Shown here in pieces: positions 1,706 to 32,189 of a stretch of 32,587 nucleotides of DNA. Both the position numbers and the translations under genes were made by a program. Source of the stretch: a virus. The stretch's first letter is position 1. Each line of letters starts with the position of its first letter. The stretch spans positions 1 through 32,587 of the IMG/VR virus record IMGVR_UViG_3300030419_001042; one strand, written 5' to 3'. The notes below the pieces were generated by a model. That model had not been told where the DNA came from, did no database searches, and worked only from the letters and a program-made list of their open reading frames with translations.

Positions 1706-1722
1706 ACGTCCCCTATAACATA
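1697..1722 (+). promoter_or_regulatory. Putative phage promoter, motif copy A
   Basis: The core TTGAACGTCCCCTATAACA (1702-1720) matches copy B at 32154-32172 in 15 of 19 positions; over the wider 26-base block it matches in 21 of 26. It overlaps the stop codon of the upstream gene and lies about 20 bases before the nrdJ start. Single-subunit phage RNA polymerases use promoters of about this length with a TATA- or TAAA-like element just before the start site. That this is such a promoter is inference from repetition, strand and position. Confidence 0.5.
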
Positions 1723-1740
1723 CGCTTAAAGGGGGTAAAT

Positions 1741-8103: not shown

Positions 8104-9386
8104 TGTATCCTGAAGATGAAAAAAAAGAGCAAAGTATTATTAATGTAGCAAGTCCTGCTAATGCAGCACCAATGCCTGCTGCAAATTATCAGATAAGCGG
8201 ACCTCTTGCAGAACATAAACCAGATACTAAACTAAGAGATACTGCTGTTGATGTAGGTGGTAGTGTTGCAGGTAAAGGTATAGAAGGTGCACTCTTTGGT
8301 GGTGGACCTGAAGGAACTTTCTTTGAGAAAGGTTTGTGGGGATTAGGTAAAGGAGCTGGTGCTGGTAGTGCTTATAGCGCAGGTTGGGGATCTGCAATGA
8401 ATCCAATAGCTGCTGCTTTTAAAGGACCAGGTACTGCTGCAGCTACTAGTGGAGCTGGAGCTGGACTATCTGCAGGCATGGCAGCCGCTGCACCTTGGGC
8501 TATCCCTGCACTTATTGGTGCCAAGATGTTTGGTTTGTTTAATAAGGGTGGAAGCGTAGGACCTTTGAGTCCACAGTATAAAGAGCATGGTGGAGAAGCA
8601 GAAGATCCTTGGGATATAACTAGAAGGCATGTTCAAACAAGTTCTACTGCCCCAGGTGGAGAGCGTGGTGGATACCCAGAAGATCAGATGAGTCAGCGTT
8701 CAAAGAATATGAGAGTACCTTATCCTGGCTTTATGGATTTTGCAAGGATGACAAGTAGAAATATTTGGAATAGTGAAGCTCCTATGTGGGAAAAGATTAT
8801 GATGACTGGTGCAATACCAGTTGATTATGGTATGAGTAAATTAAAACATGCAATACATGATAAAGATTATGGGTTAACTAGAAATGCTATTAACTATGAT
8901 GATCCAATGGTTTTAAATCCTGGAGAAGTTCATCAGTCAATGCTGCTAGGACCACTTAGTGATATTAATTATAAAAATCAAGGTGGTGATATTGTGGATC
9001 AGCTTTCTATTCCAAGAGAAGTAAAGGTACAAATGCTACTAGATCAATATAAAGATATGTATGGAAGCGCTGGGTTACCTACTGATCCTGATACTAATAT
9101 GAGAAGTGCAATGCAAGAAAAAGCTGGCTCTATGCCTTCTGCTAGAAAAAGAGGTAGAGCTACTTGGTCAGATGTTTGGGGAGCTTTAGGTAATCCTTTA
9201 AGAGGTTCTGATTTACTTCCTGCTTATTTATTAGGTCAACTACCTGCGTTTAAAAATCAAATGATAGTTACTGATTCAGAAAGAAATCAAGGAATACCAT
9301 TTGGAGGACCACTCTCAGAAACTAAGCAAAGCAACCCTCAATCAACTAAGATAGAAAAGAAAGAGACTATTGAATATAAGAACTAG
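8103..9386 (+). CDS. Putative internal virion / ejection protein with Gly-Ala membrane-type segment
   Basis: A 427-residue protein with no recognised enzyme motif. Residues about 60-145 are very rich in Gly and Ala (for example GLWGLGKGAGAGSAYSAGWG and GLSAGMAAAAPWAIPALIGA), which could insert in a membrane. The rest is hydrophilic, and NPGEV near residue 272 resembles the LTPGEFVVN motif of the next gene. This layout suits a protein stored in the capsid and ejected to help form a channel across the envelope. It is coupled to the upstream gene by TAATG and followed after nine bases by another virion-type gene. The function is inferred from context only. Confidence 0.5.
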   Translation: MYPEDEKKEQSIINVASPANAAPMPAANYQISGPLAEHKPDTKLRDTAVDVGGSVAGKGIEGALFGGGPEGTFFEKGLWGLGKGAGAGSAYSAGWGSAMNPIAAAFKGPGTAAATSGAGAGLSAGMAAAAPWAIPALIGAKMFGLFNKGGSVGPLSPQYKEHGGEAEDPWDITRRHVQTSSTAPGGERGGYPEDQMSQRSKNMRVPYPGFMDFARMTSRNIWNSEAPMWEKIMMTGAIPVDYGMSKLKHAIHDKDYGLTRNAINYDDPMVLNPGEVHQSMLLGPLSDINYKNQGGDIVDQLSIPREVKVQMLLDQYKDMYGSAGLPTDPDTNMRSAMQEKAGSMPSARKRGRATWSDVWGALGNPLRGSDLLPAYLLGQLPAFKNQMIVTDSERNQGIPFGGPLSETKQSNPQSTKIEKKETIEYKN

Positions 9387-9395
9387 GAGTTTAGT

Positions 9396-12300
9396 ATGAA
9401 ATATAAGACTACTCAAAAAGATCGCTATGGGAATATGAGATCTTTGGAAATAGATACTGGTGAAAAGAATATGGAAGTTCCTCCTATGACTTCTATGATT
9501 CCTCAGTATGAAGCTGTTGGAGGATTAGCTGAGAATCATCCAGGAGAACCAAAGGGATCTGATACTGTACCGGCTTGGCTAACTCCTGGAGAATTTGTTG
9601 TTAATAAAGAAGCAGTAGATATATACGGTCCACAGATTAAAAAGATGAATGATGTAGGTAGAGAGATTCAAGATGGTAATATAAGTCCTAGTGAAGCTAG
9701 TCAAATTCCTATGTATGCAAGCACTGGTAAAGCAGCTAAAGAATACCCTGCAGAAAAAAAGTTAGCAAATCAAATAGAAATTTATGAACATTTAAAAAGT
9801 AGAGGATTATCTGATAAAGCTGTTGCTGGATTAATGGCACAGATTCAACATGAATCTGCTGGTACTTTTGATCATCAATGGCAAGAGCATAGTGGTGGCG
9901 GAGGTCATGGCTTATTTCAAATGGACCCAAATCCAGGTGGTTGGTTAGGTCCTTACAAACAGTGGCTTAGAAAAAAATATATGGATGATATAAATAAAAT
10001 GGAATTAGAACCTGTTGTTCCAGGTGGACCTGTTCTTAATCCTACAATGCAATTTGATTCACCTCAAAATCAATTAGACTTTGCAATAGATTTATATACT
10101 AATCCAAATGCTATTCCACATCCAACTGATCCTGGTCATTATTTTATAGGGGATCAGAATGCAGCAAGTATAAGATCTGTTCTTGGAAATCCAGATGTAG
10201 ATCTTACAGAGATGTCAAATATATTAGTAGATACTTGGATTAATCCTAAAGAAAAAATTAAGTATCCTGAGAATAGAATAGATAGACAAGAAGATACTCA
10301 AGCTATGTGGGATTTAATTCAAAGCGGTGCGTTTATAGGTGCTCAAGATCCTTCTGCAGTACCAACTTGGATAACAAGAGCCCAACAGATATGGCAAGAT
10401 ATGGATAAACCAAAGGTTGAAATACCAGAGGTCGATCCCAGTGCTAGTAGTTTCCTTAGTCGTTGGTTTCCTGGTCACAGCGGTAAAAAAAGTATTGTAC
10501 CTAAATTAGATTCTTCAGATCCATATGATTTTAAAAATAAAGGTGGTCCTATTTATGCATACTCAGGAGCAGGTGTTCAAGGACCAGGATTAGGAACTTG
10601 GGAAGAAGAGATGCTAAAAAACTTACAGCATGATTATGGTAATCCATGGAATCCTTTTGATAATATTTATTCTGTAGGTATGGATTATGGTCATAGACCA
10701 ATACCAGATCCAGCAACAACAGAGGAATCATGGTACAGTCAACTTAAAAATGAATTTAGTCCAGCTCCTTCTTTAGAAAATATAGAAGAGACAACAACTA
10801 CAGATGATAATCAAGTTTACGTACCAGGATGGAAAAAAGCTATTGCTGAAGCAGGTCAGTTTGATGACGCAAATGTAAATACAATAGAAGATATGGAAGA
10901 TGTAGCTGGAGATAAATTAAGGGATTTATATTTTAGTACTCGAGATCCTGAAAAAGAAAGGCTAGAAAGATTACAAGATGGTATGATTGAAGTAGAGACT
11001 CTTCCACCATTAGAAGCACCACCAACTCCAAGAGAAATGGGTTATGGAAACTTAGAAAGAAAGAAGTGGTTTGAGTTTGATCCATACACTGATATACCAG
11101 GTGGTGGTAATGTAAAAGAATTAGAAGACCAATACCTGGAAGCTGTACAAACAGTTGCTAGTTCTAATAGCAGCGATCCAGATTATCAAAGCAAAATGGC
11201 ATGGTTAAATAAAGTTACTGCTCAGCTAGAACAAGCAAAAAGTAATCAGAATATTATAAGAGAATGGGATGCTTTTAAAGCAGGTAATGAGAAGACAGCT
11301 AAGTTTGAAAAAGAAAGTGAAAAGAATTTAAGTGAAATTGAAAAGACAAAGAAATCAATTGAAGAATTAAAAAATCGTATAGCTGAAAGTTCAGATCAAC
11401 TTCTTACTGAAAAATTAAATAAACAACTTATACAACAAGAAATAAAATTAAATGAGTTAGAATATAAAAATGTTTCTGAACATTCTAACCCAGAAAATTA
11501 TAAGAAATCAACAGTAGAAAAACTTAAAGAAAGATTAGATCCAAAAGAAGAAACATTTATGAGTGGTAAGTATAAGTATTCTGATGCAGAAGATTATGTT
11601 GAAGCACAAAATAATGCACAGCAAAAGAACATAGTAAGTGCATCAGAAAAAGTAGCTCCTAAAGTAGCGCTTGAAATTGAAAGTAAACTTAATACACAAG
11701 CAGGGAAAAAAGCTATAGCAAATGCAGAAAGTAAATCTGAGACTGATCCTGAGAAAACTAAAGCTAGAAAGATGTTTGACTTTTTGTTTGGAGATCTTAT
11801 AGACCAAGGTGAAATAGGTAGAGCGATTGCTGTATACTTAGGATCTAGAGCTATGGGTTATGATCATGGCAGTAGTTTTGGTTATGTAGCTAGACAGTAT
11901 CTTGCAAGAGTTGATAAAAAGAATGCTATGGTTAATAAGTTCTTATTAGAAAATGCTGGTAAATACACTCCGGCTTCTGTGAAAAAGTTTAAGAAGACAG
12001 GTAATCCTGCAGATCTTATACCAATAGGTTCAACTCCTTATGCTACTGGTGTAAGAAAGAAATACTATAGCACTAATCCAAAACTTAGAGGTGGGCAGAT
12101 GGCTTATGAGTTTAAAGTAAAAAATGCTCAAGGTAATATAGCAACCTTCTGGTCTTTTGATAGTACAGGTAGAGATGATAGCTTGCGATTAAGAGATGGA
12201 TGGCAAGAGACAGATCCTAATTTAATTGATGATAAAGAAATATCACATATTGAAAAGATCATAAGAGATTTTCAATCAGGTGATGGTAAGAAAACTACTG

Positions 12301-12953
12301 GTTCTTCTGTCAAAGGTAATTTAAAAACTATCTATTGGGAGACTGGTGATTCTACTCCAGGTATGTCGCCAGCTGCAGCAGCAGATGAAATTGCAGGATG
12401 GTTAACTGATAGAGGTATTAAGCCTGGTAAGATAGGACAAGCTATTCATAATGCTTACGCTGCAATGATTGCAAAGAATAAAAAGCTTTATAATGAAGAT
12501 CCAAAGACTACTGTTAGGCATGAGTCTTTAATTCCTTTCTTAGAAGATGAGTTAATTAAAATGCGTCTTGAAGATATGCGATATTTAGATGCTAATAATA
12601 AGATGCATCTGATTCCTTCTCCAGTAAAAGCAAAGGTTAATGGTGAAGAAAGAGTTATGTCTAATGATAAACTTAAAGAAATCCAAAATAGAGTTGAAGA
12701 ATTCTATGGACCTGTACAAGCTACTGATTTATTCTGGGCAGAAATTAGTAAGTCATGGGAACAGCATGCTTCTGATGAGTATCAAGAAAAATACCAAAAG
12801 AAAGGTGGTAAGAAAGTAACTTGGAAAGAAGTGTTTATGGAAATGGCTAAGGAAAAGAAGTGGTCTGAGTATACGCCATTTGGTTTGTTTGCATTATCAG
12901 CAATAGAGCAGCAGATTGAAGCAGCATCTAATGAAAGCTATCAACCACAATAG
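9396..12953 (+). CDS. Large virion protein with tail-lysozyme-like domain
   Basis: An 1185-residue protein. Residues about 54-74 carry GSDTVPAWLTPGEFVVNKEA, a motif common in phage tape-measure and ejection proteins. Residues about 120-190 look like a phage tail lysozyme: a helix leading to GLMAQIQHESAGTFD, then GGGGHGLFQMDP, with Glu153 as candidate catalytic acid. This would cut peptidoglycan locally during genome entry. A long coiled coil lies at about 620-700 (E, K, L, I, N-rich). The C-terminal third is mixed helical sequence of unknown role. Start ATG 9396 follows TAGGAGTTTAGT. In T7 the murein hydrolase is in gp16; here it is in a different protein, so the ejection proteins are modular. 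Confidence 0.7.
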   Translation: MKYKTTQKDRYGNMRSLEIDTGEKNMEVPPMTSMIPQYEAVGGLAENHPGEPKGSDTVPAWLTPGEFVVNKEAVDIYGPQIKKMNDVGREIQDGNISPSEASQIPMYASTGKAAKEYPAEKKLANQIEIYEHLKSRGLSDKAVAGLMAQIQHESAGTFDHQWQEHSGGGGHGLFQMDPNPGGWLGPYKQWLRKKYMDDINKMELEPVVPGGPVLNPTMQFDSPQNQLDFAIDLYTNPNAIPHPTDPGHYFIGDQNAASIRSVLGNPDVDLTEMSNILVDTWINPKEKIKYPENRIDRQEDTQAMWDLIQSGAFIGAQDPSAVPTWITRAQQIWQDMDKPKVEIPEVDPSASSFLSRWFPGHSGKKSIVPKLDSSDPYDFKNKGGPIYAYSGAGVQGPGLGTWEEEMLKNLQHDYGNPWNPFDNIYSVGMDYGHRPIPDPATTEESWYSQLKNEFSPAPSLENIEETTTTDDNQVYVPGWKKAIAEAGQFDDANVNTIEDMEDVAGDKLRDLYFSTRDPEKERLERLQDGMIEVETLPPLEAPPTPREMGYGNLERKKWFEFDPYTDIPGGGNVKELEDQYLEAVQTVASSNSSDPDYQSKMAWLNKVTAQLEQAKSNQNIIREWDAFKAGNEKTAKFEKESEKNLSEIEKTKKSIEELKNRIAESSDQLLTEKLNKQLIQQEIKLNELEYKNVSEHSNPENYKKSTVEKLKERLDPKEETFMSGKYKYSDAEDYVEAQNNAQQKNIVSASEKVAPKVALEIESKLNTQAGKKAIANAESKSETDPEKTKARKMFDFLFGDLIDQGEIGRAIAVYLGSRAMGYDHGSSFGYVARQYLARVDKKNAMVNKFLLENAGKYTPASVKKFKKTGNPADLIPIGSTPYATGVRKKYYSTNPKLRGGQMAYEFKVKNAQGNIATFWSFDSTGRDDSLRLRDGWQETDPNLIDDKEISHIEKIIRDFQSGDGKKTTGSSVKGNLKTIYWETGDSTPGMSPAAAADEIAGWLTDRGIKPGKIGQAIHNAYAAMIAKNKKLYNEDPKTTVRHESLIPFLEDELIKMRLEDMRYLDANNKMHLIPSPVKAKVNGEERVMSNDKLKEIQNRVEEFYGPVQATDLFWAEISKSWEQHASDEYQEKYQKKGGKKVTWKEVFMEMAKEKKWSEYTPFGLFALSAIEQQIEAASNESYQPQ

Positions 12954-12962
12954 GAGTTTAAT

Positions 12963-15900
12963 ATGGACTTACCTAGAATAGATATACCTACTCTTCAAGT
13001 ACCTAAGCCTATTGCTGGAAGTGGTGGTCATAGGTTTATTGATGGTGATACATTAGTAAATGAAGAAGGTAACTTACTTAGAATAGAAGGTTTAAGTGCA
13101 CCAGAGATTAGACGTCTTATGGATTCTGGTTATCTTAAACCTGGTACTCCTGGTGGATTAGAAGCTACTAAACAAATTGAAGAACTTGCAAATCAATTTG
13201 GATATAATAATGTAAAGTATCTTACAAATGAAGATGGTTCTCCTAAGTTAGATGTTCATGGTCGACAGCTTGTTAGATTAAGTGATGAATATGGCAGAGA
13301 CTTTACAGAAACACTTACCCGTTATGGTATTAATAAGTTAAGTAGATATAGTTCTGAAGAAGAAATAGATAAGTATCGATGGGGATTAGCACAAAAATCT
13401 AATGCCAATCTTTTGGATAAACCTTTAAATAACTTTGAAAAGTCAGCTCTTATTTTAGATGATGCTGTAAAGTCAGAGCAATGGTACGATACTGAATTTG
13501 CAAAAGCTGCATTGAATGAAACCGAATTATCTAGGCTAACTGCAGAAAGACAACCAGGAGAATCACTAGCTGCATTTTCTTGGAGAATGAAAGAGGCTGC
13601 TAAGTATACAGGAGCAAGAGTACAACAAAGACATAAAGATAGAACTCTTGATAACCAAGCACTTCATCCTTGGGCTGAAGGATTTGATATAGGATGGAAT
13701 GGTGTTATTGAATCTTTGTATGGTGCTGCTGAATTACTTGGTGAAAAGACTGGATTTAATTGGTTAGAAAATCTAGGGGAAGCAGGTATTAAAAGACAAA
13801 GAGAATATCTTTTGACTAAGCCTGAATTAAAATTAAATATACTTAAGCCTGTATTAGATGATGATGGAAAAGTTATAGCTAATGAGTGGGATGTAGATGG
13901 AATAGGGGAATTCTTTGAATATACTGGTAATATGATGGCAGTATCTATTCCTTATATGGGAGTCACAGCAGCAGGTACTATGCTAGCACCAGCAACAGGC
14001 GGTACTTCTTTAGCAGCTGCTACAGGAATTGGAGCTATGTCAGGAGTAGGTTTAAGTATGGTTGCTCCAGTTGCTATGTATACTGGAATGACTTGGAATG
14101 ATATGGAAGGAGAAAATAAAAGTGCTATACTAGCAGCAGCTGGTGGTATTACTATGTCAGTCCTTGATAGATTAGGTATTAGAGCATTGATGGGAACAAT
14201 GACTGGTACTTTATTAAGTCCTAAGTATCGTAAAGAAATGGTTAAAGCATATATTACAAAACATGGTGGCACTGAGTCTGCTGCAAAAGCGGCTATTGCT
14301 CAGATGTCTAGAATGGAAGCAGCTAAGTTAGTAGGTCATGCAGCTAAAGTTGCTAAAGACCAATTAACTTACGGAAATATTTTAAGATCTTTTGCTGCTA
14401 GAGCTGGTATTGGATTTGGTATAGAGTCTATGACAGAAACAGGACAGGAACTTGCACAATATTTAGCAGCAACTTATGGAAGTGATAAGCCTTTTGATAC
14501 AGTAGAACTTCATAATAGATTAGTCAATGCTTTTGTAGCAGGTGGTACATTAGGTTCTGCATTCTCAGTACCTGGAACTGCTTATGATGTAGGGGCTTGG
14601 ACAGATGTTCATGTTAGAAAATCACCAGCAGAAGATAAAAGAAAATCTAAAGAAAGTAAAATGCAATTAGAAGAAGAAGCACACTTGCATAGTTACTGGG
14701 AAGAAGGAGATACTCTTCCTGAAGGAGTAAGAGTTGGTGACATAAAACAAAAGTATGTACATGGTAAACCTAAATCAATTCAAGATATTTATACTGATCT
14801 TAAAAAAGGTGCGCAGCATAGAGCAGATTCTAAAGCTGCAGAAATACAAACTCTTCAATTACAATTATCTGATCCTCAACTTCCTACTGAACAAAGAACT
14901 GCTATAATAGCAAGGATTAAAGCATTAAGAGAAGCCACAAATTTACAAACAAAAAAAGCTGCAGGTAGAAAGCAGCTTAAAGATAGAGAAGTTTGGCAGA
15001 AAATAAAAGATGCTGCAGCCGCTTTCCCTGTATTATGGAGAGGTGCTACTCGCCATTACTTTACAGATGCAAATGAAAAGTCTCCTGAAGTTAGACACTA
15101 TTCATCAGGTCTAGGTGCTTTCTTACATCCTGTATATTCAGGAGAAACTCTAGAAAATTTTAAACATAATACATTAACGTTCTTTAAAAATGTTTTAGGG
15201 CAAGTTGAGATAGCACCCGGTGATAAAAGAGATTTCAGTGCTGCAGCTGTGGCAGCAGCTCTTGGTTATAAAACTCTTGATACATTAAAAATATCTAAAG
15301 ATGTTTATGAATTTTATCAAAATCTTTTAGTCAGAGATAGCAAAGGAAATATTGTAGATAGTATACTTGCTGATGATATTGATTGGGATACTATGCCTAA
15401 ACATATAGTAGCAAAGAAAGACTTCTATTATAACCTTGCAAAAAGATTTGATAAGTTTAGTAAACAATTATTTGATGATCAAAAAAATTCAAGGATACAT
15501 TATTATAATCCAGATGGTACAGTAGATACAACTAGTGATACTGGTAAGACATTTACTATGGGTGAAATAAAAAACTATATTGGAAGATATAGATCTATTG
15601 ATAAAGTTAAAATTGAAAAAGATAAAGAAGGATTTATAAAAGATCTTATAGAACATAAAAAATATACAAGAGCTGAAGCTACAAAATTAGCAAATGCTAT
15701 ACTTGATAATGATGAACTTATTGATGAGAATAGTTTATTCGAAGTTGGTAAAGGTGTTCATATACCTTCTCAGCATAGAAATAGAAAATTAAATATGGCT
15801 GATGATCCTGTGTTAAGTAAATGGATGGAGCAAGATTTATTTATAAATATTTCTAATGCTGCTAAGTCAGCAGCCAGATATATTACTTATCAAAGATTTA

Positions 15901-17312
15901 TAGGTGATGATGGTGAGATTCTTAATGAAGGAATAGAGAGAGCAATAGAAAGCGGATCTATAAGTAGAGAAGAAGGAAATGCTCATGCTGCTTTTATACA
16001 AGATTATCTTGATGGTGAATCAGGTAACTATAAGAAAATACAAAATCCAAGGATTGCTAACTTACAAAAGAACTTATTAGTATGGACAACACTTGCTGGA
16101 TTACCTATGGCTACTATTTCTTCTCTTGTAGAATACATGATGATCTCAAGAGCACTAAGTCCTGAACAAATTAATAATGTTATAAAAGCTTCTGCTAAAG
16201 AATTTGCAGGTGCAATATGGGAAACCATGACAACTGCTACACCAAATATGAAGTTAGCTACGTCAGTTCAAGGACAGCTAGCTAAAGAAAAAAGGCAAGC
16301 TCGTTTAAAAAGATTAGGTTATTTTACTTGGGATACAGGTGCAGCACAAACTACAGGTGCTACTGAAAATACGTTTGCTTCAAGATATTTATTAGATAAA
16401 TATTTTAGAATAATTCTCTTACAACAGTGGACAGATATGACACGTAATATAAGGGGTGCACAAGCAGATGATTTTATTATGCATCACTTAAGTATTATAA
16501 GAGATCAAAGAACAAAGGGTACTTTATATGATAATGAAGTACAAGAATCAGAAGAGCATTTAAGAAACTTAGGAATTAATATAGAAGAGCTTTTAGAAAT
16601 AGATAGTATAAATGTTAAAAAACCTGATAATAAATCATGGGAAGAATTTCTACTTGAACAAAGACAAGCAGGTAGTAGGCTTGATAGAATATTAGCAGAT
16701 GCTGAATACAATTTTATTAATGAAGCTGTTGCATTACCTGGTACTGCAAACAGACCATTGTTCTATCAGAATCCACACTTAGCATTGTTCACACAGTTCC
16801 AAGGTTTTATTGCAACCTTTACTGCTAATCATATTCCTAGAATGTGGGGTGATTATGTAAAGAGGGGTACTCCTTCAATGAAGTATAATGCTTTTGCTAT
16901 CATAACATTAATGATTGCAATGGGATTTGTATCTCAATATCTAAAAGATTTATTAAAGTATGGAGGGAGTAGTCCTTACTTAGATTCAATGGAAAAACTA
17001 CAAAGAGGTTTAGGTGCATCAGGTATGTTAGGTGTAGCTGAGAGACCACTAAACTTTTTCTTTCCTATTTATGAAACATCTTCTAGTAATATGATAGAAG
17101 AAATATTTCATGGAGTAAGCGGAGAAGCCGCAGCTATATCTAATTTATCTAAGGCTGCAACAGGTGCTACTCAAATAATTGAAGGAGCTTTAACAGATAA
17201 AAGTATGGAGCCTGGACTTTATAAAGGATTTAAGACAGCGCCATTAACTGGACCATTCAATCAGTTTAATAGGTGGGCTGCTTCAAGACTTTCAGGAGTG
17301 TTTGAAAACTAA
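12963..17312 (+). CDS. Giant internal virion protein with N-terminal SNase-like nuclease domain
   Basis: A 1449-residue protein. Residues about 22-130 match the staphylococcal nuclease fold in order: FIDGDT (Asp27, Asp29), LLRIEG (Arg40), SAPE (Glu48), then DVHGRQLVRL (Arg101) and a GRDFTETLTRYGINKL helix. These correspond to SNase Asp19/Asp21, Arg35, Glu43 and Arg87; SNase Asp40 is replaced by Ser45. A hydrophobic Gly/Ala-rich block lies at about 325-425, and coiled-coil sequence at about 610-680. The C-terminal part has FTQFQGFIATFTANHIPRMW and a hydrophobic helix, of the type seen at the end of large podovirus internal proteins. Size and position match T7 gp16 (1318 aa). I infer an ejected protein that brings a nuclease into the cell or envelope. 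Confidence 0.65.
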   Translation: MDLPRIDIPTLQVPKPIAGSGGHRFIDGDTLVNEEGNLLRIEGLSAPEIRRLMDSGYLKPGTPGGLEATKQIEELANQFGYNNVKYLTNEDGSPKLDVHGRQLVRLSDEYGRDFTETLTRYGINKLSRYSSEEEIDKYRWGLAQKSNANLLDKPLNNFEKSALILDDAVKSEQWYDTEFAKAALNETELSRLTAERQPGESLAAFSWRMKEAAKYTGARVQQRHKDRTLDNQALHPWAEGFDIGWNGVIESLYGAAELLGEKTGFNWLENLGEAGIKRQREYLLTKPELKLNILKPVLDDDGKVIANEWDVDGIGEFFEYTGNMMAVSIPYMGVTAAGTMLAPATGGTSLAAATGIGAMSGVGLSMVAPVAMYTGMTWNDMEGENKSAILAAAGGITMSVLDRLGIRALMGTMTGTLLSPKYRKEMVKAYITKHGGTESAAKAAIAQMSRMEAAKLVGHAAKVAKDQLTYGNILRSFAARAGIGFGIESMTETGQELAQYLAATYGSDKPFDTVELHNRLVNAFVAGGTLGSAFSVPGTAYDVGAWTDVHVRKSPAEDKRKSKESKMQLEEEAHLHSYWEEGDTLPEGVRVGDIKQKYVHGKPKSIQDIYTDLKKGAQHRADSKAAEIQTLQLQLSDPQLPTEQRTAIIARIKALREATNLQTKKAAGRKQLKDREVWQKIKDAAAAFPVLWRGATRHYFTDANEKSPEVRHYSSGLGAFLHPVYSGETLENFKHNTLTFFKNVLGQVEIAPGDKRDFSAAAVAAALGYKTLDTLKISKDVYEFYQNLLVRDSKGNIVDSILADDIDWDTMPKHIVAKKDFYYNLAKRFDKFSKQLFDDQKNSRIHYYNPDGTVDTTSDTGKTFTMGEIKNYIGRYRSIDKVKIEKDKEGFIKDLIEHKKYTRAEATKLANAILDNDELIDENSLFEVGKGVHIPSQHRNRKLNMADDPVLSKWMEQDLFINISNAAKSAARYITYQRFIGDDGEILNEGIERAIESGSISREEGNAHAAFIQDYLDGESGNYKKIQNPRIANLQKNLLVWTTLAGLPMATISSLVEYMMISRALSPEQINNVIKASAKEFAGAIWETMTTATPNMKLATSVQGQLAKEKRQARLKRLGYFTWDTGAAQTTGATENTFASRYLLDKYFRIILLQQWTDMTRNIRGAQADDFIMHHLSIIRDQRTKGTLYDNEVQESEEHLRNLGINIEELLEIDSINVKKPDNKSWEEFLLEQRQAGSRLDRILADAEYNFINEAVALPGTANRPLFYQNPHLALFTQFQGFIATFTANHIPRMWGDYVKRGTPSMKYNAFAIITLMIAMGFVSQYLKDLLKYGGSSPYLDSMEKLQRGLGASGMLGVAERPLNFFFPIYETSSSNMIEEIFHGVSGEAAAISNLSKAATGATQIIEGALTDKSMEPGLYKGFKTAPLTGPFNQFNRWAASRLSGVFEN

Positions 17313-17323: not shown

Positions 17324-20300
17324 ATGGTACAAACCAATTTACCAAGCGGAGTAGTAGGTGCAGACATCACACCGTCCGCTAAATTACAAGAGCGTAAAGA
17401 GTTAGCATCTCTTGCAAAAGGTGTAAACATTTTAACTCAGTCTGAGCTTGCAGCAAGATTAGAAAGGGATCGAGCAGCAGGAGCAGGTGCTTTTAGAGAG
17501 GAAGCTCTTCAACAAGAAGCTGATCAGATGAGAGCCTTAGAAGAAATAACTGCAGCTTTTCCTAATCAATCTGGGGCAGCACGTGAAGAATTTAAATATG
17601 CAGATGAACTATCAACAGCACCTACTGAAGCAGAAGAAGTAGATGCTACTCCTCAACTTAGTCAAGCACAGCTTATAGAAGAACTAAGTAAACCTGTTTT
17701 TACTATGCAAATAGATGAAACTGATGCACGAAATAATGAAAAATTACAAGAACTAAAACTACATAATAGATTGTTAACTAAAGCTGAAGCACTTTCTAAA
17801 AATTTAGGTGCGCCAGGTATGTTAAGTTACGAGTCGCTTCTTAATCTTTCTAAAGATCTAGTAGCCTCAGGACAAGCAGGCAAACCACTTCTTGATGCTT
17901 TAACTAGAGTACATTTAGCAGCTAAAAAAATGCAACAAGGTATAAGTCTTAAAGGTAGTATGACAAAAGCACAAAGAAAAATGTTTTTGCAAACAGGAAG
18001 TTGGAAGTTATCAGCACATGCAGCAGAAGATACTTCTCAAGGTGTAAGTGATATTATAGCTTCAGCAGATCCTGCTAAAAGAATGGAAGGAATAACTTAT
18101 AAAGAAACTACTCAAGCTGATGCTCCTATACGTTCAAGTAATCCAACTCTTAATACTAATATGACTAATATTGTATTAGATGTTTTAGAAGCAGGCTACT
18201 TAAATAACAATGGACAAATTGAAATTGATCCAGAACTTTTTAGTATTATGGCAATGAATGCTGAAGAATCTTTTATTACTTCTTTATATGCTACAGATCA
18301 AACAGAATCATTAGCAGATATAGTTATTGATGAAGATGCAGATACTAAGGTACCTAGACCTAAGAAGAATGATCCTAAAGCTGAACAAGATATTAAAGTA
18401 GCAGTTATTAGAAAGACAGATGGTCTTGAAAAAGTTGGTAGAAATATTTATAGAGAATATAAAAGAATGAAAGCTGTAAGTTTAGGTCAAGAACCTGATG
18501 CTTATCTGGCAGATATAGATGATATAAATAAAGAAGTCTTTATTCATTTAGGATCTAGAGCTAAAGAGTTTTATTATAAAGCTGTTTCAGCGGAAGCCGA
18601 TCCAGAGACTGGACTTTTAAGAAGGCCTAAGGGTGGAGGATTAGAAAAAGATCTTGTAGAGTATATCGTTACTCCTTATGGTAGCTCTGTATTTGAAGAT
18701 ATGTATAGAGTATACTCAGGTTTATTTGAAGCAACTGAAGTTAAGCCTCAACCTCATGCTGTTAAAGGAGGCGTTATTGCAGGTGAAGGTACTCAAATCA
18801 CTAGACGAATGACAACTTGGATGTCAGAATATATTGGTGATACTACTATGGCGTTTAATGCAATGGAAGTTCAGAATGCTATGCCTATAGTTAATGATAG
18901 TAGTAGAAGTTCTCTTAGTGCTATCTTATATATGCAAGCATTAGCAGGTGGAGGAAGAGTTGAACCAATAATAAATAGTGCAACTATGCAACCTATGCAT
19001 GCTAGGCATAATATATATACTGAGCCACAAAATAAAAGAAATTATTATGCAGATATATTTAAAATTGGTAGAAATAAATTTGATGATTTACAAAGTGAAA
19101 AGAGATCTTTACATGAAAGAGTAGACCAACTTAAAAGAGAAAGGCAAGCAGCACTTGGTGCTCAAAGCCAAGCAGAATTAGCTAATGTTCCTTCTGAAGA
19201 AGAGATTAAAATGGCTGAGGCAGTTGCTGAAAATTATAATCCTTCATCTATTCTTAAACTTGAAAGAGAAAAATCTATAAATATAGCAGAAGCAATACAA
19301 AGATATAACGGAGTTAACCATTTAACTTATGCATTACAATTATTAACTGGTAGAATGCATGCACAACAAACTCTTTATAATCCTCAGGCACATCCTATGG
19401 TTAGGAATGTAGTATCAGGTGGGCATGTATATAGCTGGATACCTGGTCAAGGCGGTCAAATAGAAAATGATTTTAAAGTTTTAATGACTGCTAAATTATT
19501 TGAAGATCCTAAAGTTTCTGATGTTTATAATTGGAAAAAAGATAAAGGCTTTCGTATGCCTGAAGAAAAAAGGTTACAAGTATTTAATGAACTTGAAGCT
19601 GAATCTAGAGCTAGACCTAATGAAGGATTATGGAATCAGTATGTAGCATGGGGAAGAGAGCTTATTGCTCTTACACAAAGAGCTGACAAGCCAAGAATTG
19701 CAAATTATTTAGCACAAATTAAAAAGAATGGATTGCAAGGCACTAGTTCTAACCCTATTATGGAACAAGTTAGAGCAGAGTTTTCACAAGATTCTTTAAG
19801 CGAACCTTTAAGAGTTTGGTTATCTGAGCATGAGCAAGAGGCTATTAAACATGCGGATTATCTAATGGCTTTAGCTAAGTATACTGATGCTAGAAAAGCA
19901 GGTAAAACTTTTCATGCAACTCAAGCATTTGAAATTGATGGTAAGACACATGGTCCTTTAACTATGGGTGCACAGTTTGGTAGTGTAGCAATGACCAAGC
20001 GTGGTGATATGATAACTGCAGTACCTCTTATTGACAAGTTAAAAGGTGATGACTTCATGGATCTAAGAGATGCTATGGCTAAGACTATGCTTGATGAATA
20101 CGCTAGACTAGCACAAAGTAATGCTTACAGATCTCAACTTGGTGGTGATAAGACTGATGCTCTAGGTGTGATACTGCGAGAAGCATTGAAAGATAGAGAA
20201 AATATGCTAAAGAAATCACCTATGACTTTAGGATATGGTCAAGTAGTAATGTCTTTAAAGAGGCATATTCAAAAAGTAGTAGATTTAAATCCTAAAATTA

Positions 20301-21553
20301 GAAAGATAGCAGCTGATAATAAATTAAAAGTAAATCAAGTAGTTGATTGGCTACATAATATGATGGTCAATGCTATCTATGCAAATATGGATGGGCATAC
20401 TATTGATACAATGAATACAATTAAACATATAGCTTGGCAATCAGTACTCTTAAATGAGATGCTAACTTTTTATCAGCCTACAGGACTTAAAGTATATTCT
20501 ACTGGTATGGAATACTTTCCAGATAAAAAAGTATCATGGGATTCTAAATCAACTCCTGATGATATGGATGCATTACCTAAAGCTATAACAGACTATAGCT
20601 ATATGGGAAAGGCATCTCCTCAAGCTATAAGAAAGTTTCCAAGTGGTGGAGCTGAGATAGGTGGGTTTACTGTTAGTAGAGTATTAGCTTCTTTAATACA
20701 AGGCTATGATCCTGATATGACACAAGGTGTATTTAATAATGTAAAGTTTACAGGTAAAGATAAGTATGGTAATTATGAATTTAAAACTACTAATTATTGG
20801 AATCAAATTAAAGAAGCCGCTTTTAATAATGGTGCAAGAATAAAAAGAATTAAAGATGGCAAAGAGGTATATGAAGGTAACCCATTTGTTATACAAATTT
20901 ATGATGCTTTCCTAGTAGATCTTGGAAGCTATTCTAAAGTTAAAGAGATTGCAAATAAAATTCATAAAGAAAGTATTATTAATGATGATGCTGCTTATAA
21001 AGTTTTTAATTGGTATGAGCAAGAAGCTAAACCTAAATTAGAAAAACTTAGCACTGATACAAATATGTATGATGTTGAAAAAGATTTTCTTAAGATTTAT
21101 ACTTTATTTACTGGAGAAAAATACCAAGCTAAGTTTGGTAATATTAATCCTTACAAAGAATTAGTTAAGTACCTTAAGAAAAATATAAGAATGGAATGGA
21201 ATAGAGAAGGTACTGAAGTTCAAGTCTGGAATGCCGCTAAAAATAAGATGGTCACTGAAAGAATAAACAAACAAACTTTAAAAGATTGGGATCAAAAAAT
21301 GCATAGCAAAGCATTTAAAACAGCTATCGATATAGAGAAAGAACTTACAACAATTGAAACAAAACCTTTAGATATGTTAAACACTACTGGAAAATTACCT
21401 GGTACAGAAATTGCACGTATATTAAAAGTACTTAATAAACATGCTGGTTTAGAACCACAAATAATAAAAGCTAAAAGCAATGTATCTGCAGGTAAAAAGG
21501 AAGTAAGGAAAGCATTATCTACTGGTGGTCCTTCAAATAATATTGATGCTTAA
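17324..21553 (+). CDS. Giant single-subunit RNA polymerase, likely N4-like virion RNA polymerase
   Basis: A 1409-residue protein at the end of the virion cassette. It contains the catalytic motifs of T7-family polymerases in order: GRMHAQQTLYNPQ (Arg677, compare T7 GRVY...FNPQ), motif A FEIDGKTHGP (Asp872, T7 Asp537), motif B KKSPMTLGYG (Lys963 and Tyr971; T7 Lys631 and Tyr639 in KRSVMTLAYG), and motif C IQIYDAFLVD (Asp1194, T7 Asp812 in IHDSF). Motif A to the motif B lysine is 91 residues here and 94 in T7. The arginine before motif B is one residue out of register. The N-terminal 400 residues are unlike T7. Location among ejection genes, a second T7-like RNAP elsewhere, and the size point to a compact relative of the N4 virion RNAP, co-ejected with DNA. 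Start follows AAGGAGAATATAA. Confidence 0.72.
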   Translation: MVQTNLPSGVVGADITPSAKLQERKELASLAKGVNILTQSELAARLERDRAAGAGAFREEALQQEADQMRALEEITAAFPNQSGAAREEFKYADELSTAPTEAEEVDATPQLSQAQLIEELSKPVFTMQIDETDARNNEKLQELKLHNRLLTKAEALSKNLGAPGMLSYESLLNLSKDLVASGQAGKPLLDALTRVHLAAKKMQQGISLKGSMTKAQRKMFLQTGSWKLSAHAAEDTSQGVSDIIASADPAKRMEGITYKETTQADAPIRSSNPTLNTNMTNIVLDVLEAGYLNNNGQIEIDPELFSIMAMNAEESFITSLYATDQTESLADIVIDEDADTKVPRPKKNDPKAEQDIKVAVIRKTDGLEKVGRNIYREYKRMKAVSLGQEPDAYLADIDDINKEVFIHLGSRAKEFYYKAVSAEADPETGLLRRPKGGGLEKDLVEYIVTPYGSSVFEDMYRVYSGLFEATEVKPQPHAVKGGVIAGEGTQITRRMTTWMSEYIGDTTMAFNAMEVQNAMPIVNDSSRSSLSAILYMQALAGGGRVEPIINSATMQPMHARHNIYTEPQNKRNYYADIFKIGRNKFDDLQSEKRSLHERVDQLKRERQAALGAQSQAELANVPSEEEIKMAEAVAENYNPSSILKLEREKSINIAEAIQRYNGVNHLTYALQLLTGRMHAQQTLYNPQAHPMVRNVVSGGHVYSWIPGQGGQIENDFKVLMTAKLFEDPKVSDVYNWKKDKGFRMPEEKRLQVFNELEAESRARPNEGLWNQYVAWGRELIALTQRADKPRIANYLAQIKKNGLQGTSSNPIMEQVRAEFSQDSLSEPLRVWLSEHEQEAIKHADYLMALAKYTDARKAGKTFHATQAFEIDGKTHGPLTMGAQFGSVAMTKRGDMITAVPLIDKLKGDDFMDLRDAMAKTMLDEYARLAQSNAYRSQLGGDKTDALGVILREALKDRENMLKKSPMTLGYGQVVMSLKRHIQKVVDLNPKIRKIAADNKLKVNQVVDWLHNMMVNAIYANMDGHTIDTMNTIKHIAWQSVLLNEMLTFYQPTGLKVYSTGMEYFPDKKVSWDSKSTPDDMDALPKAITDYSYMGKASPQAIRKFPSGGAEIGGFTVSRVLASLIQGYDPDMTQGVFNNVKFTGKDKYGNYEFKTTNYWNQIKEAAFNNGARIKRIKDGKEVYEGNPFVIQIYDAFLVDLGSYSKVKEIANKIHKESIINDDAAYKVFNWYEQEAKPKLEKLSTDTNMYDVEKDFLKIYTLFTGEKYQAKFGNINPYKELVKYLKKNIRMEWNREGTEVQVWNAAKNKMVTERINKQTLKDWDQKMHSKAFKTAIDIEKELTTIETKPLDMLNTTGKLPGTEIARILKVLNKHAGLEPQIIKAKSNVSAGKKEVRKALSTGGPSNNIDA

Positions 21554-21568
21554 GTGTCTCCTTAAAGA
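21550..21568 (+). promoter_or_regulatory. Putative phage promoter, motif copy C
   Basis: TTAAGTGTCTCCTTAAAGA matches copy B (32154-32172) in 16 of 19 positions and copy A in 12 of 19. Like copy A it overlaps the stop codon of the preceding gene, on the + strand. If active it would direct a transcript of only about 170 bases before the terminator at 21691-21739. Confidence 0.4.
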
Positions 21569-21606
21569 GGAAAGCAAAATGTAACTATAACTATAGAGGG
21601 TTTGAG

Positions 21607-21687
21607 ATGTGGCCGTTGTTTAATAAAAGATTTTTAGATTTTAATTATGACTATGTAGATTTTTCAAAATTGTTTAGCCGTTACTAA
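21607..21687 (+). CDS. Possible 26-residue microprotein
   Basis: A short frame with a good ribosome binding site (GAGGG ending six bases before the ATG). The product starts MWPLFNKRF and ends KLFSRY, with nine aromatic residues in 26 (five Phe, three Tyr, one Trp). It lies between promoter-like motif C and the convergent terminator and is the last + strand frame before it. No family is recognised. It may be an expressed peptide or a chance frame in a short non-coding RNA. Confidence 0.35.
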   Translation: MWPLFNKRFLDFNYDYVDFSKLFSRY

Positions 21688-21690
21688 TAA

Positions 21691-21739
21691 AAAAATACCC
21701 CTAAGAATATCTTATGATACTCTTAGGGGATTTTTTTTT
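21691..21739. terminator. Bidirectional intrinsic terminator between convergent operons
   Basis: The stem CCCCTAAGAATATC (21698-21711) pairs with GATACTCTTAGGGG (21716-21729) around a TTAT loop: 14 positions with one mismatch. Nine T follow on the + strand (21731-21739), and an A-run precedes the stem, giving TATTTTTT on the - strand. It can therefore stop both the rightward late transcripts and the leftward early ones. It abuts the stop codon of the 88-residue gene. Confidence 0.9.
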
Positions 21740-22004
21740 ACATCTTTTTTATTCTATCAAGAGCAAATCTTTTCCATTCACCCATAGCTTTTATACCTTC
21801 GGGTTCCATGTCCTGGCTTTTATACCATTCTAAACTTTCTTGATATTCATTTTCAATTATTAATTTATCTAGTTCTTCATCAGTCATAGAATCCGCAAGA
21901 CTTGGATCCATTCCTAATTCTATTAAAACTGTTTTGTTATCAGGTTCCAAGCCTAATCTTACTGGAAGTATTCCTTTCTCTTTCTTACGCGAAGAAGTAG
22001 TCAC
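21738..22004 (-). CDS. Hypothetical 88-residue protein after RNA polymerase gene
   Basis: Unrecognised, 88 residues, last gene of the leftward operon. The start is GTG at 22004: an AGAGG ribosome binding site lies nine bases upstream and no ATG precedes residue 31, so GTG is needed to keep the full frame. The first 17 bases after the GTG overlap the end of the RNA polymerase gene in another frame. The N-terminus is basic (SSRKKEKG), the middle acidic (DEELDKLIIENEYQES), and the end carries W and K residues. There is no membrane segment. Tight coupling to the polymerase gene could mean an accessory or regulatory role in transcription, but the sequence does not show it. Confidence 0.6.
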   Translation of the reverse strand: MTTSSRKKEKGILPVRLGLEPDNKTVLIELGMDPSLADSMTDEELDKLIIENEYQESLEWYKSQDMEPEGIKAMGEWKRFALDRIKKM

Positions 22005-24174
22005 TGTTCTTTACCTCTCTAATGTCTAAGCTACCTAGCTTAGGTTGTTGATAGTTAAAATTATCTGGATTAGTTACAATCATTCTTTCAATAACCTCAA
22101 AGAAATTAGAATAACTATACATTACTATAAACTCTTCTTTAATAAGAGCTAACAACTCATCTACATCACAAGCATGTACGCTGTATGAATCATGTACGGC
22201 GCCAAAATCCCCCGCCCATTTAGCAATCACTCTTGCCATATGAGAGGCATCCATAGAGTGAACAAAGTTAGGTGAGATCCCAGACATAAAAGATCTTATC
22301 TTTGGTTTGTCTGTAGGTTCTTTCCCAACATGTTGGATTCTTATAGTATCTGTTTCTTCTTTACTACCATCCTCTTTAGTTAAGATAGGCTTAACCTTTC
22401 TTTGACTACAGCTAATGATAGCTTTCTCTTTGAATTCATTCTCAACGAATGCTTCATATATAACTGGAAATCCAGATGGTGTTGTCCATCTTATAGATTT
22501 CTGTTTGATGTTCTTAGAATACTCTGATGCTATCTCAGCTTCAGCAATCTTCTGTAAGAACTTCATTGTTTGTAGTGGACCTGCACAAACACTATCAATT
22601 GCTTTGATTAAATGTTTAGCAAGTAACTCACAGTCCTCTTCAGTTATATTATACTTATCTAAGTACCCTTCCACATGACAGTCAAGATACATATTTTCTG
22701 CGATCTTCTGAGCTCCAGCACTGTATGCTCGAGTCATTGAACCACGTTTGGCTATACCTTTGCGTATATGTTTCATTGGCATTTGTCTTTCTTCAAACCA
22801 ATCAGGAACTCTCTTGATTAAATCTTTAGCACACTGTACATAAAAATCTTTTTGTATATCCTGTGGTACAATCCCAACTAACTCTCCTGCTTCTTTGTCT
22901 TTAGACATAGCACATAGATGTTGCCATCCATTATTAGAACCGTCAATTGGTATTGGAAGATAAGTAATATATTCTTCTTGATCTAGTGCATCTTTAATTT
23001 CTAATACACTAGCTAGCAAGCTAATAGGTTTCTCTGCAGCAGGACTTATAATTTCTTTATCAGCTATCTCTAATAGCTTATCAATATTATTATCAGTCCA
23101 TGCTTCACGATCTTCTAACGTCATTTTATCTACGGATATATCATCTAACTCTTCATCCTTTAAGTAAGGAAGATAGTCAGTTGTTAGCCACTTAGGAAGA
23201 TTATCTTTACTATAAGTTTCATTATAGCAACAAGCTATATGAATCTTAAGTCTTCTTAATCCTGCGTCTGTCATAGGTTTACCTTTAGCAAAAAGCATTT
23301 GACCTCTTGCTAAATCATTACCTTGAAAGTTTAGGAATGGTGTAGTATAATATATTCTACCACGATAATCTGCTTCTACATATTGATAAAATGATTTGTC
23401 ACCTATCAGTTTAGATCGTGCCATAGTTAAATCAAATTCTATTATCTTTGATTTATATTTCTTAGGAAAGTTTTTGTATTGATCTAGTATTTTATTTCTA
23501 TTACGATTTAAAATATTTCTAATCTTATTATTAACTTTCCATTCAGTTTGTTGTAACACATTCATGCTTTTAATAAAGCTGTTTGCTAAGTAAGGTTTAA
23601 ACTCTTTACTTCTATCATGTGTCCATCCTTTTATTACAGGTCTTTCAGTAGGTTGCATTAAAGAATTAATAGATTCAGGCTTTTCAAAGACAGTTCCTTT
23701 TAATAAATCCATGCTACCTTCAGGTACAAGTAAGTCCCACTTCTCTGGTATTACTATGTAATGTGCACGGCTTCTCTTTAAACTACGGTCTAAAGATTCC
23801 ACTGGAATAAATGTATTATCCCTGGTTTTACCTATATTAATCTGATGTGTTTGATAGAAAGGTTCTAAGAATAAATCTCCCATCATAACTCGAAGTCTAA
23901 ACCAATCCCAAGGTGCATCATCCTTATTAGAATACTTTATTTCTGTTAAGATATGAGTGCCAACTGCTACGCTTAAGTGCGTAAGGTTAGCTTCACCTTG
24001 GTATGATTTGTTTCCTCTCATACTATTACGAGCAAAGTGTTGTTGGATAGTGTCCATAGTAAATACTAAGTACGCTTTTAAATCTTCTAATGAAGTTTCT
24101 TTCAAAAGATTACAAGCAATATGCGCTTTAGATTTAGTAATCTTTTTCTTTAAGTACCCAAGCTGCTCCTCCAT
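21985..24174 (-). CDS. T7-like single-subunit DNA-directed RNA polymerase
   Basis: A 729-residue phage RNA polymerase, expected to transcribe part of the phage genome from its own promoters. Motifs: DYRGRIYYTTPFLNFQGNDLARG (269-291, T7 DWRGRVY...NPQGND), motif A DGSNNGWQHL (Asp411 = T7 Asp537), motif B AKRGSMTRAYS (Lys476 = T7 Lys631, Tyr484 = Tyr639), motif C VHDSYSV (Asp662 = Asp812), and a C-terminus SDYFFA matching the T7 SDFAFA foot. It is about 150 residues shorter than T7 RNAP (883), mostly before the catalytic core, where promoter recognition and melting reside in T7. T7 Gly640 is Ser485 here. Start ATG 24174 follows AAGGAGTAAA. Unusually it is near the end of its operon, not an early leading gene. 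It overlaps the deaminase gene by 25 bases. Confidence 0.93.
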   Translation of the reverse strand: MEEQLGYLKKKITKSKAHIACNLLKETSLEDLKAYLVFTMDTIQQHFARNSMRGNKSYQGEANLTHLSVAVGTHILTEIKYSNKDDAPWDWFRLRVMMGDLFLEPFYQTHQINIGKTRDNTFIPVESLDRSLKRSRAHYIVIPEKWDLLVPEGSMDLLKGTVFEKPESINSLMQPTERPVIKGWTHDRSKEFKPYLANSFIKSMNVLQQTEWKVNNKIRNILNRNRNKILDQYKNFPKKYKSKIIEFDLTMARSKLIGDKSFYQYVEADYRGRIYYTTPFLNFQGNDLARGQMLFAKGKPMTDAGLRRLKIHIACCYNETYSKDNLPKWLTTDYLPYLKDEELDDISVDKMTLEDREAWTDNNIDKLLEIADKEIISPAAEKPISLLASVLEIKDALDQEEYITYLPIPIDGSNNGWQHLCAMSKDKEAGELVGIVPQDIQKDFYVQCAKDLIKRVPDWFEERQMPMKHIRKGIAKRGSMTRAYSAGAQKIAENMYLDCHVEGYLDKYNITEEDCELLAKHLIKAIDSVCAGPLQTMKFLQKIAEAEIASEYSKNIKQKSIRWTTPSGFPVIYEAFVENEFKEKAIISCSQRKVKPILTKEDGSKEETDTIRIQHVGKEPTDKPKIRSFMSGISPNFVHSMDASHMARVIAKWAGDFGAVHDSYSVHACDVDELLALIKEEFIVMYSYSNFFEVIERMIVTNPDNFNYQQPKLGSLDIREVKNSDYFFA

Positions 24175-32096: not shown

Positions 32097-32124
32097 AATA
32101 TAAAATGGTTAAAAAAATTGTCGA
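32097..32124 (-). promoter_or_regulatory. Putative leftward early promoter (sigma70-like)
   Basis: On the - strand TCGACA (32124-32119, five of six matches to TTGACA) is followed after 16 bases by TATATT (32102-32097, five of six to TATAAT); an overlapping TATTAT gives an 18-base spacer. It lies directly upstream of the first leftward gene, where an early promoter is needed. The -35 sits inside the dyad at 32114-32144. An injected N4-like polymerase recognising the hairpin is an alternative reader. Confidence 0.45.
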
Positions 32125-32144
32125 GCGACAGCCGAGACAATTTT
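32114..32144. promoter_or_regulatory. Inverted repeat with alternative nested hairpin in divergent control region
   Basis: AAAATTGTC (32114-32122) and GACAATTTT (32136-32144) are perfect 9-base arms. Inside, TGTCG-AG-CGACA (32119-32130) forms a competing short hairpin using part of the left arm. On the - strand the outer stem is followed by seven T, so it could also terminate stray leftward transcription. It may be an operator, a terminator or a hairpin promoter. Confidence 0.5.
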
Positions 32145-32148: not shown

Positions 32149-32174
32149 AAGAATTAAATGTCCCCTAAAAGACA
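32149..32174 (+). promoter_or_regulatory. Putative phage promoter, motif copy B, with inverted repeat
   Basis: The core TTAAATGTCCCCTAAAAGA (32154-32172) is the best match to the shared motif. It lies 16 bases before the terminase small subunit start, the natural place for a late rightward promoter. It also contains a perfect 8-base inverted repeat, TAAATGTC (32155-32162) and GACATTTA (32171-32178), around CCCTAAAA. Confidence 0.5.
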
Positions 32175-32189
32175 TTTATGGAGGTTATT

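Follow-up and report, generated by a model that had tools for sequence, protein, structure and literature searches.

Uncultured bacterial viruses that seem to carry a compact N4-type virion RNA polymerase beside a T7-like RNA polymerase

Some uncultured bacterial viruses seem to encode a virion RNA polymerase (vRNAP) less than half the size of that of phage N4, adjoining a second, T7-like RNA polymerase (RNAP). The case analysed here is a linear virus record of 32,587 bases (IMGVR_UViG_3300030419_001042; the whole stretch is called the window), in which a protein of 1409 residues and a T7-type RNAP of 729 residues are encoded by converging genes. Both open reading frames (ORFs) were located where a preliminary description of the window, made from its sequence, had put them. 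Homology, fold, catalytic residues, gene order and absence of cysteine were computed for the 1409-residue protein, as were co-varying hairpins, their placement and a second motif in sister genomes. On this evidence we judge it probable that the phage carries a compact, cysteine-free vRNAP of the N4 lineage, which would be packaged, would start from early hairpin promoters and would hand over to the T7-type RNAP.

17324–21553, (+) strand: candidate compact N4-type vRNAP, 1409 residues, no cysteine (motifs, profile, fold)
Domains of this protein, borders approximate: residues about 1–210, variable N-terminal extension; about 260–1409, single-subunit RNAP domain
19352–19354, (+) strand: Arg677, GR...NPQ motif (49 of 49 members)
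19937–19939, (+) strand: Asp872, motif A, EIDGKTHG, matching the published N4-vRNAP motif ExDGxxxG (family alignment)
20210–20212, (+) strand: Lys963, motif B (family alignment)
20234–20236, (+) strand: Tyr971, motif B (family alignment)
20903–20905, (+) strand: Asp1194, motif C, IYDAF (family alignment, N4 profile alignment)
21985–24174, (−) strand: T7-type single-chain RNAP, 729 residues, 10 cysteines, converging on the vRNAP gene (PF00940, 8.3e-59; PHROG 414, 8.4e-101)

Catalytic motifs and predicted fold

The 1409-residue protein contains the strings TGR677...YNPQ, EID872GKTHG, K963KSPMTLGY971G and IYD1194AF, with the catalytic residues at positions 677, 872, 963, 971 and 1194 as first described. 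The family alignment comprises 49 non-redundant sequences, window included, drawn from 101 ORFs of at least 900 residues. R677, D872, G873, K963, M967, Y971, G972 and D1194 are invariant in all 49, and the motifs are therefore not chance occurrences; G676 is kept in 43. Members of a sister clade have only 16–21% identity to the window protein, and their catalytic residues are still invariant.

An AlphaFold model of the core (residues 471–1409, 42 rows) had a predicted local distance difference test (pLDDT) score of 90.7 and a predicted template modelling (pTM) score of 0.88; a longer model (residues 210–1409, 23 rows) had values of 78.2 and 0.72. With Foldseek, each model matched 72 PDB chains at E <= 0.001, and all of the 50 matches listed were single-subunit RNAPs. 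Predicted single-subunit RNAPs were also matched with high confidence. In VIA-align, the core model superimposed on T7 RNAP (8dh5) with Z 25.6 over 541 residues at 4.9 Å and on the N4 mini-vRNAP (3c46) with Z 20.0 over 597 residues at 4.7 Å. For the long model the corresponding values were Z 24.3, 532 residues and 5.2 Å with T7, and Z 22.6, 709 residues and 6.8 Å with N4.

A polymerase fold had been singled out beforehand as the point on which the proposal could fail, and the models agree with single-subunit RNAPs at Z up to 25.6. At the level of the models, the palm/fingers single-subunit RNAP fold is settled, and the protein is predicted with near certainty to be an RNA polymerase. Asp872, Lys963, Tyr971 and Asp1194 are predicted to meet in one active site, as the fold match suggests together with the alignment of the profiles at the N4 motifs.

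Kinship with the N4 vRNAP

Kinship was assessed with profiles, each E-value coming from one pairwise comparison. Built from the 49 family members, the family profile matched that of 12 N4-like vRNAPs (N4 and L144–L154; 10 of the 12 are classified in Schitoviridae) with Prob 99.0 and E 8.6e-18 over 716 columns. Against 26 T7-like RNAPs (those of T7, the window and Roseobacter phage CRP-7, and 23 from relatives) the values were Prob 71.8 and E 3.5e-5, while the N4 and T7 sets matched each other at E 1.9e-8. The window clade alone (18 rows) gave E 7.1e-11 with the N4 set and 0.45 with the T7 set. As negative controls, two neighbouring giant protein families were compared with both sets, and the four comparisons gave E 0.08–0.68.

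In the alignment of the family on N4, all four motifs are in register: GR falls on GR, NPQ on NPQ and DGxT on DGxT, and K963, Y971 and IYD1194 pair with K670, Y678 and IFD951. The motif ExDGxxxG, which has served to recognise N4 vRNAPs (PMC10654107), is present in the window protein; in most of the sister clade its E is replaced by Y. The compact N4-type assignment of the preliminary description was thus borne out by the profiles, and the 1409-residue protein very probably belongs to the N4 vRNAP lineage.

N4 gp50 and the N4-like vRNAPs share with the window protein a homologous RNAP domain, the register of the motifs, the absence of cysteine and the position of the gene as last of the late arm. 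They differ in size: the N4 vRNAP, made up of an N-terminal domain, the RNAP and a large C-terminal domain, has 3500 residues, compared with 1409 here and 1117–1426 among the complete homologues counted. The vRNAPs of reference genomes have 2842–3820 residues (PMC10654107), and that of Alteromonas phage R22Y has 2083 (PMC11705849). T7 RNAP and mitochondrial RNAP are alike in fold, catalytic residues and motif order, but their profile similarity is far weaker and, unlike them, the 1409-residue protein is cysteine-free and lies in an ejection cassette.

Relatives and the paired T7-like polymerase

Direct searches of Pfam, PHROGs, PDB sequences (phmmer) and phage isolates with the 1409-residue protein gave no significant match, and a peptide-pattern scan based on the window protein alone found no relatives. 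A 23-row family profile gave one insignificant match among PDB sequences (E 0.91). Relatives were reached through the neighbouring T7-like RNAP, which led to 60 loci, many of them short fragments; 33 of these encode a homologue by tblastn. A search of viral_contigs with an alignment led by remote members then identified 119 stretches that encode the family, and the analysis continued with the best 80. Among 728 ORFs of at least 300 residues from 156 loci and the window (a redundant set), 119 matched the family profile at E <= 1e-5. In the two remotest members, L045 6153–9767 (E 1.5e-25) and L050 7632–11144 (E 1.1e-35), all catalytic residues are kept and the motif surroundings have diverged (DGKQNG and DGNSNG).

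The 729-residue protein is an evident T7-type RNAP, as had been noticed from the sequence, and its pairing with the vRNAP recurs. The vRNAP itself led to 62 distinct loci, 61 of them testable (at least 2.6 kb downstream). A convergent T7-like RNAP lies within 1.5 kb of the vRNAP in 59 of the 61, and at 1.8 and 2.4 kb in the other two. Each of 18 long contigs, picked among vRNAP carriers, holds one T7-like RNAP and one vRNAP homologue, and the window holds both. The second polymerase of N4 differs in being a gp15/gp16 heterodimer, compared with the single chain found here. The compact N4-type two-polymerase arrangement suggested earlier is supported by kinship, by fold and by the presence of the T7-like RNAP in 61 of 61 testable loci; virion packaging is as conditional as it was then, but gains independent support from cysteine content, gene position and early-arm hairpins.

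Hairpins in the early arm of sister genomes

In the early arm of sister genomes, the motif CCAC[AG]GGGG is flanked by inverted repeats, some of them imperfect (family A). G010, G011 and G013 have four, three and four copies, and every one of the 11 is on the early strand within the early arm; two further matches to the motif, in G016 and G018, are on the opposite strand. Scanning viral_contigs with the family-A pattern gave 71 stretches. Among 18 contigs taken from those bearing them, six carry a vRNAP, including both that exceed 57 kb, and the 12 without one measure 11–26 kb each. Three of 43 pattern-A copies (L217, L237 and L256) are likely chance matches in coding sequence, and the 43 are not independent, since many of them stem from contigs that are close relatives of one another. 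Family A ends within 100 nucleotides (nt) of the next ORF in 24 of 42 cases, most commonly at 54 nt.

Covariation was computed on 18 of 21 sequences obtained with a pattern that did not require stem complementarity. Those dropped were L218:2907-2940, L225:4955-4988 and L249:836-869, the last of which pairs imperfectly. Many of the loci derived from the first scan, whose pattern set some stem positions as Y or R. In these 18 sequences, 96.3% of stem cells pair. The covariation score was 0.345 compared with 0.140 ± 0.022 after shuffling, none of 500 shuffles reaching it, and slid controls gave at most 0.116. Three of the five measures exceeded the shuffles. Pairs with a change on both sides (four) did not, the value being reached by 78 of 500 shuffles, nor did further pair types, for which all 500 reached the observed value.

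In N4, early promoters have a GC-rich heptamer framed by inverted repeats, and a few A residues precede the start (PMC4496689). Family A resembles them, and from sequence its hairpins are likely candidates for N4-type promoters in the sister genomes. Further repeated early-arm hairpins were found as family B (G014, four copies), C (G016, three), D (G012, two) and E (two sites in G008, one of which lies in the end repeat and is hence seen twice, and one in G015). The B and C patterns also match unrelated long contigs of 37, 55, 137 and 350 kb without a vRNAP; 4 of 22 contigs searched carry one, all of them members already known. Families B–E are therefore supporting rather than decisive. Folding of the DNA was not exceptional, with z −1.47 for a family-B hairpin and −0.66 for the N4 site at 93.

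In sister genomes, the gap that separates TerL from the first early gene (L169 13716–14130; L199 3101–3241, which is G016:C1:43101-43241) contains many small hairpins and short repeats, and in G016 an array of the 12-nt CTGTGAGAGATC lies there. This gap is a possible origin or packaging site.

Hairpins and a second motif in the window clade

32114–32144, (−) strand: hairpin tipped by C(TGTC)G and followed by a T-run, ahead of early-arm genes (one of 14 window-clade C(TNNC)G hairpins)
32156–32169, (+) strand: AAATGTCCCCTAAA, candidate T7-like RNAP promoter (repeated before late-strand genes in relatives; counted without shuffle control)

The early-arm gaps of eight window-clade members contain hairpins with a C(TNNC)G tip, 14 on the early strand and one on the other (G005). 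Mononucleotide shuffles of these gaps gave a mean of 0.62 and a maximum of 4 in 200 shuffles, compared with the 14 observed. Elsewhere in the clade, one such hairpin lies in a late gap and 57 lie in coding sequence on either strand. Some of the early-arm copies, such as that at G001 32681, lie some 50 nt ahead of an ORF, with 300 nt separating them from the previous ORF. The window hairpin at 32114–32144 may be a promoter or a terminator, and for hairpin promoters in the window's own phage the balance is even.

The T7 promoter is CACTATAGG, and a second, non-hairpin motif resembles it. The motif (ATACCCCTTATAG, TAAGTTCCTTATAG, ATAAGTCCCTTTAG or TGTAACCCTTATGG; AAATGTCYCCTAWA in the window clade) was found in 15 sequences, window included, a count without shuffle control, the motif having been picked genome by genome after repeats were seen. 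In many genomes it precedes TerL, a late gene of 581–589 residues or a late-strand gene standing alone in the early arm, and seven matches fall inside predicted ORFs. The T7-type enzyme may use this motif as its promoter. A late-strand gene of 131–136 residues recurs in the early arm of G001, G002, G003, G005, G006 and G007 and at 32178–32587 of the window, and the AAATGTCYCCTAWA-type motif precedes it.

Ejection cassette and cysteine content

12963–17312, (+) strand: ejection-cassette protein, 1449 residues, no cysteine (PHROG virion structural protein, 5.4e-18)
9396–12953, (+) strand: ejection-cassette protein, 1185 residues, phage tail lysozyme domain, no cysteine (PF18013, 2.6e-9)
8103–9386, (+) strand: protein of the same cassette, 427 residues, no cysteine, no family match

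As in N4, the gene of the 1409-residue protein is the final gene of the late arm; it follows ejection-type proteins and faces the other arm. The neighbours had been described as bearing lysozyme and staphylococcal nuclease (SNase) domains. The lysozyme domain was confirmed in the 1185-residue protein, while no Pfam match to an SNase domain was obtained with the 1449-residue protein or with its N-terminal 200 residues alone. By eye, the N-terminus of the latter (DGDTL...RIEGLSAPE; window 12963–13562) resembles the start of staphylococcal nuclease, on which Pfam is silent.

None of the 1409 residues is a cysteine, and 46 of the 49 family members are cysteine-free, the remaining three having one each. 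The 26 T7-like RNAPs, which come mostly from contigs that also encode family members, contain cysteine at 14.7 per 1000 residues, and no sequence lacks it. The ejected proteins of N4 (gp50, gp51 and gp52) likewise have none, compared with four and nine in gp15 and gp16 of its RNAPII. A vRNAP without cysteine has been detected in particles by mass spectrometry, and the absence has been tied to passage through tail and periplasm (PMC3715699). Packaging of the 1409-residue protein in the virion is highly likely given zero cysteine, its place at the end of the late arm and the early-arm hairpins of three sister genomes.

Alternative explanations

Several observations count against the proposed reading and are weighed here with the explanations that they favour. 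The early-arm hairpins could be intrinsic terminators or RNA-processing sites, the host RNAP reading the early genes. Of the 14 C(TNNC)G hairpins on the early strand in the window clade, 13 end in a T-run and several start within about 15 nt of the end of the preceding ORF, so that these hairpins are possibly terminators. The window's clade yielded no family-A hairpin. Among the family-A copies, 14 of 40 start at most 43 nt past the end of an upstream ORF and 11 of 43 lie inside an ORF of at least 60 residues. On the other side, the family-A stems co-vary, and no T-run follows any of the 43 flank-checked copies; a purine-rich tail (typically TTTAAAAGAGA) follows 39, and the distance to the next ORF is the one given above. 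In G010, G011 and G013, moreover, one copy occupies the gap separating the divergent TerL gene from the first early ORF, a place with no rightward transcript in need of a terminator. On the whole, a terminator or processing role of the early-arm hairpins, with early genes left to the host RNAP, is rather unlikely, and we prefer to read those of family A as candidate promoters.

Alternatively, the protein could be a working single-subunit RNAP made late and used in the cell, for late transcription or priming, its position in the cassette being accidental. Packaging is itself deduced, and by structure alone T7 elongation complexes score equal to or above N4, so that the fold is as close to the cytoplasmic T7 RNAP as to N4. 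Structure being undecided between the two, the N4 kinship depends on the sequence profiles. The major capsid protein of N4 is cysteine-free as well, and zero cysteine is thus no proof of ejection. Tblastn with four family members matched no phage isolate, and we know of no virion proteome, isolate or transcription start for the group. The alignment of the models with N4 runs to the C-terminus of the 1409-residue protein; the giant C-terminal domain (CTD) of N4 has no counterpart and is missing. Against an unpackaged enzyme stand the zero cysteine shared with N4 gp50–52 and the cassette proteins, compared with the cysteine-rich T7-like RNAPs, the last position in the late arm beside ejection-type proteins, the profile nearest to N4 vRNAP and the early-arm hairpins. 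We consider such an enzyme improbable and a packaged one the better account.

Descent of a structural or ejection protein from an RNAP, with the fold kept and catalysis lost, is most improbable, since all five catalytic residues are kept by every one of the 49 members despite 16–21% identity in the sister clade, even though ejection proteins can be large and act as conduits and gp33 of phage CRP-7 occupies the same place without cysteine or intact motifs.

Phage CRP-7

CRP-7, a podovirus of 58.1 kb, is the closest isolate by its T7-like RNAP (35% identity). Its genes follow the same order in two arms, and the late arm closes with three giant proteins free of cysteine. Its gp33 (L063 17859–21566, 1235 residues), in the vRNAP position, has no significant match to the family, which also tells against our interpretation: profile comparisons gave E 0.06 for the family, 0.16 for the N4 set and 0.28 for the T7 set. 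Three stretches of this protein (EADARQSNAG, ARGLVVAGLYG and IHDALI) recall motifs A–C by eye, as in a decayed vRNAP, an identification that we do not claim. It is possibly a decayed or replaced vRNAP. In the available part of the paper describing CRP-7 (PMC6918029), the T7-like RNAP is the only RNAP named. The early region of CRP-7 has two hairpins (L063 329–352 and 1129–1153) whose 7-nt loop, TGTAATG, is identical and whose self-complementary stems differ.

Genome organisation and classification

21698–21729, (−) strand: hairpin resembling a terminator, with T-run, in the gap where the genes of the two polymerases converge (terminator scan of the window)

Most genes of the window belong to two arms, one read rightward from its left end to 21553 and the other read leftward from 31951 to 21985. 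The rightward (late) arm closes with the three very large proteins of 1185, 1449 and 1409 residues. The leftward arm encodes a MazG-like protein, thymidylate synthase, DNA polymerase, exonuclease, primase-helicase, dCMP deaminase and the T7-type RNAP. Two convergent arms were found in the window and in 18 relative contigs. Four relative contigs (G001, G008, G012 and G013) have exact end repeats of 77–280 nt and sizes of 57.6–58.8 kb; G009 and G005, both cut, were excluded from this comparison. The window, a record of 32.6 kb, is a fragment, and the small T7-like genome of the preliminary description was not upheld in view of the two convergent arms and the sizes of the relatives with end repeats.

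In the window, three terminator-like sites were observed compared with 3.9 expected from shuffles, so that the class is not significant; no tRNA and no Rfam match were found. A host look-up gave three contigs of metagenome-assembled genomes from mixed phyla and was uninformative. The large subunit of ribonucleotide reductase (599 residues, 13 cysteines) is encoded within the rightward structural arm (1702–3501), and genes for this enzyme are present in the late arm of CRP-7 too. Tail-fibre-like genes at 5427–6667 contain degenerate 60-nt repeats that are 60–75% alike.

Genes of Autographiviridae all run in one direction. The window has the T7-type RNAP of that family and two convergent arms. 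The N4-like family is defined by three RNAP genes, a vRNAP of about 3500 residues and a genome of 59–80 kb, and a very large virion-associated RNAP has been called characteristic of and unique to N4-like phages (PMC7650795). Seventeen core proteins are conserved in Schitoviridae. The window fragment has one 729-residue T7-like RNAP and one 1409-residue enzyme and, on the definition by RNAP genes, is not placed in that family; a third RNAP gene may lie beyond the fragment, but no enzyme of giant size is present. Genome size does not decide the placement, the end-redundant relatives having 57.6–58.8 kb and the window being a fragment.

vRNAPs have been proposed for StenR_269, DES1 and Zobellviridae from size, lack of cysteine and helix content (PMC10747016). 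These cases are alike in having a large cysteine-free protein in a podovirus outside Schitoviridae; the basis differs, being motifs, profile and fold for the 1409-residue protein. In the literature searched (bioRxiv preprints and most subscription journals lying outside it), a vRNAP of this size class is undescribed. A search of IMG/VR dropped all candidates below 2500 residues, which is stated to eliminate almost every T7-like RNAP (PMC10654107), and a compact vRNAP class would have been discarded along with them. On the sequence evidence, the 1409-residue protein is a probable compact vRNAP outside Schitoviridae.

Proposed cascade and its implications

We infer packaging, ejection, hairpin recognition by the 1409-residue enzyme and the order of the cascade as follows. 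The 1409-residue RNAP would be made late, packaged together with the ejection proteins and injected alongside the DNA. Inside the cell it would transcribe the early arm, from promoters that would be extruded DNA hairpins in the sister lineages and probably here too. The T7-type RNAP would be a product of the early arm and would then take over the middle and late genes, using promoters of the common double-stranded T7-like type, with transcripts expected to start at the CCTTATAGG / AAATGTCYCCTA motifs. With one RNAP carried in the particles and a second, T7-like one, early transcription could begin without the host enzyme. The chances are about equal that these viruses form a podovirus-like lineage outside Schitoviridae with a programme free of host RNAP, in which the loops and stems of lineage-specific extruded hairpins have co-diverged with the compact RNAP that starts there and the T7-like RNAP serves the rest.

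If this proposal is true, virion-carried transcription extends well beyond Schitoviridae, and several independent sets of hairpin promoters would be at hand for testing coevolution of hairpin code and enzyme. The N4 CTD is reported to repress the RNAP domain (PMC12633501), which makes a natural relative lacking it of interest. A vRNAP could then function without the roughly 1400-residue CTD; the compact form would show the minimum of a vRNAP, and N4 would have gained its giant CTD later or could do without it.

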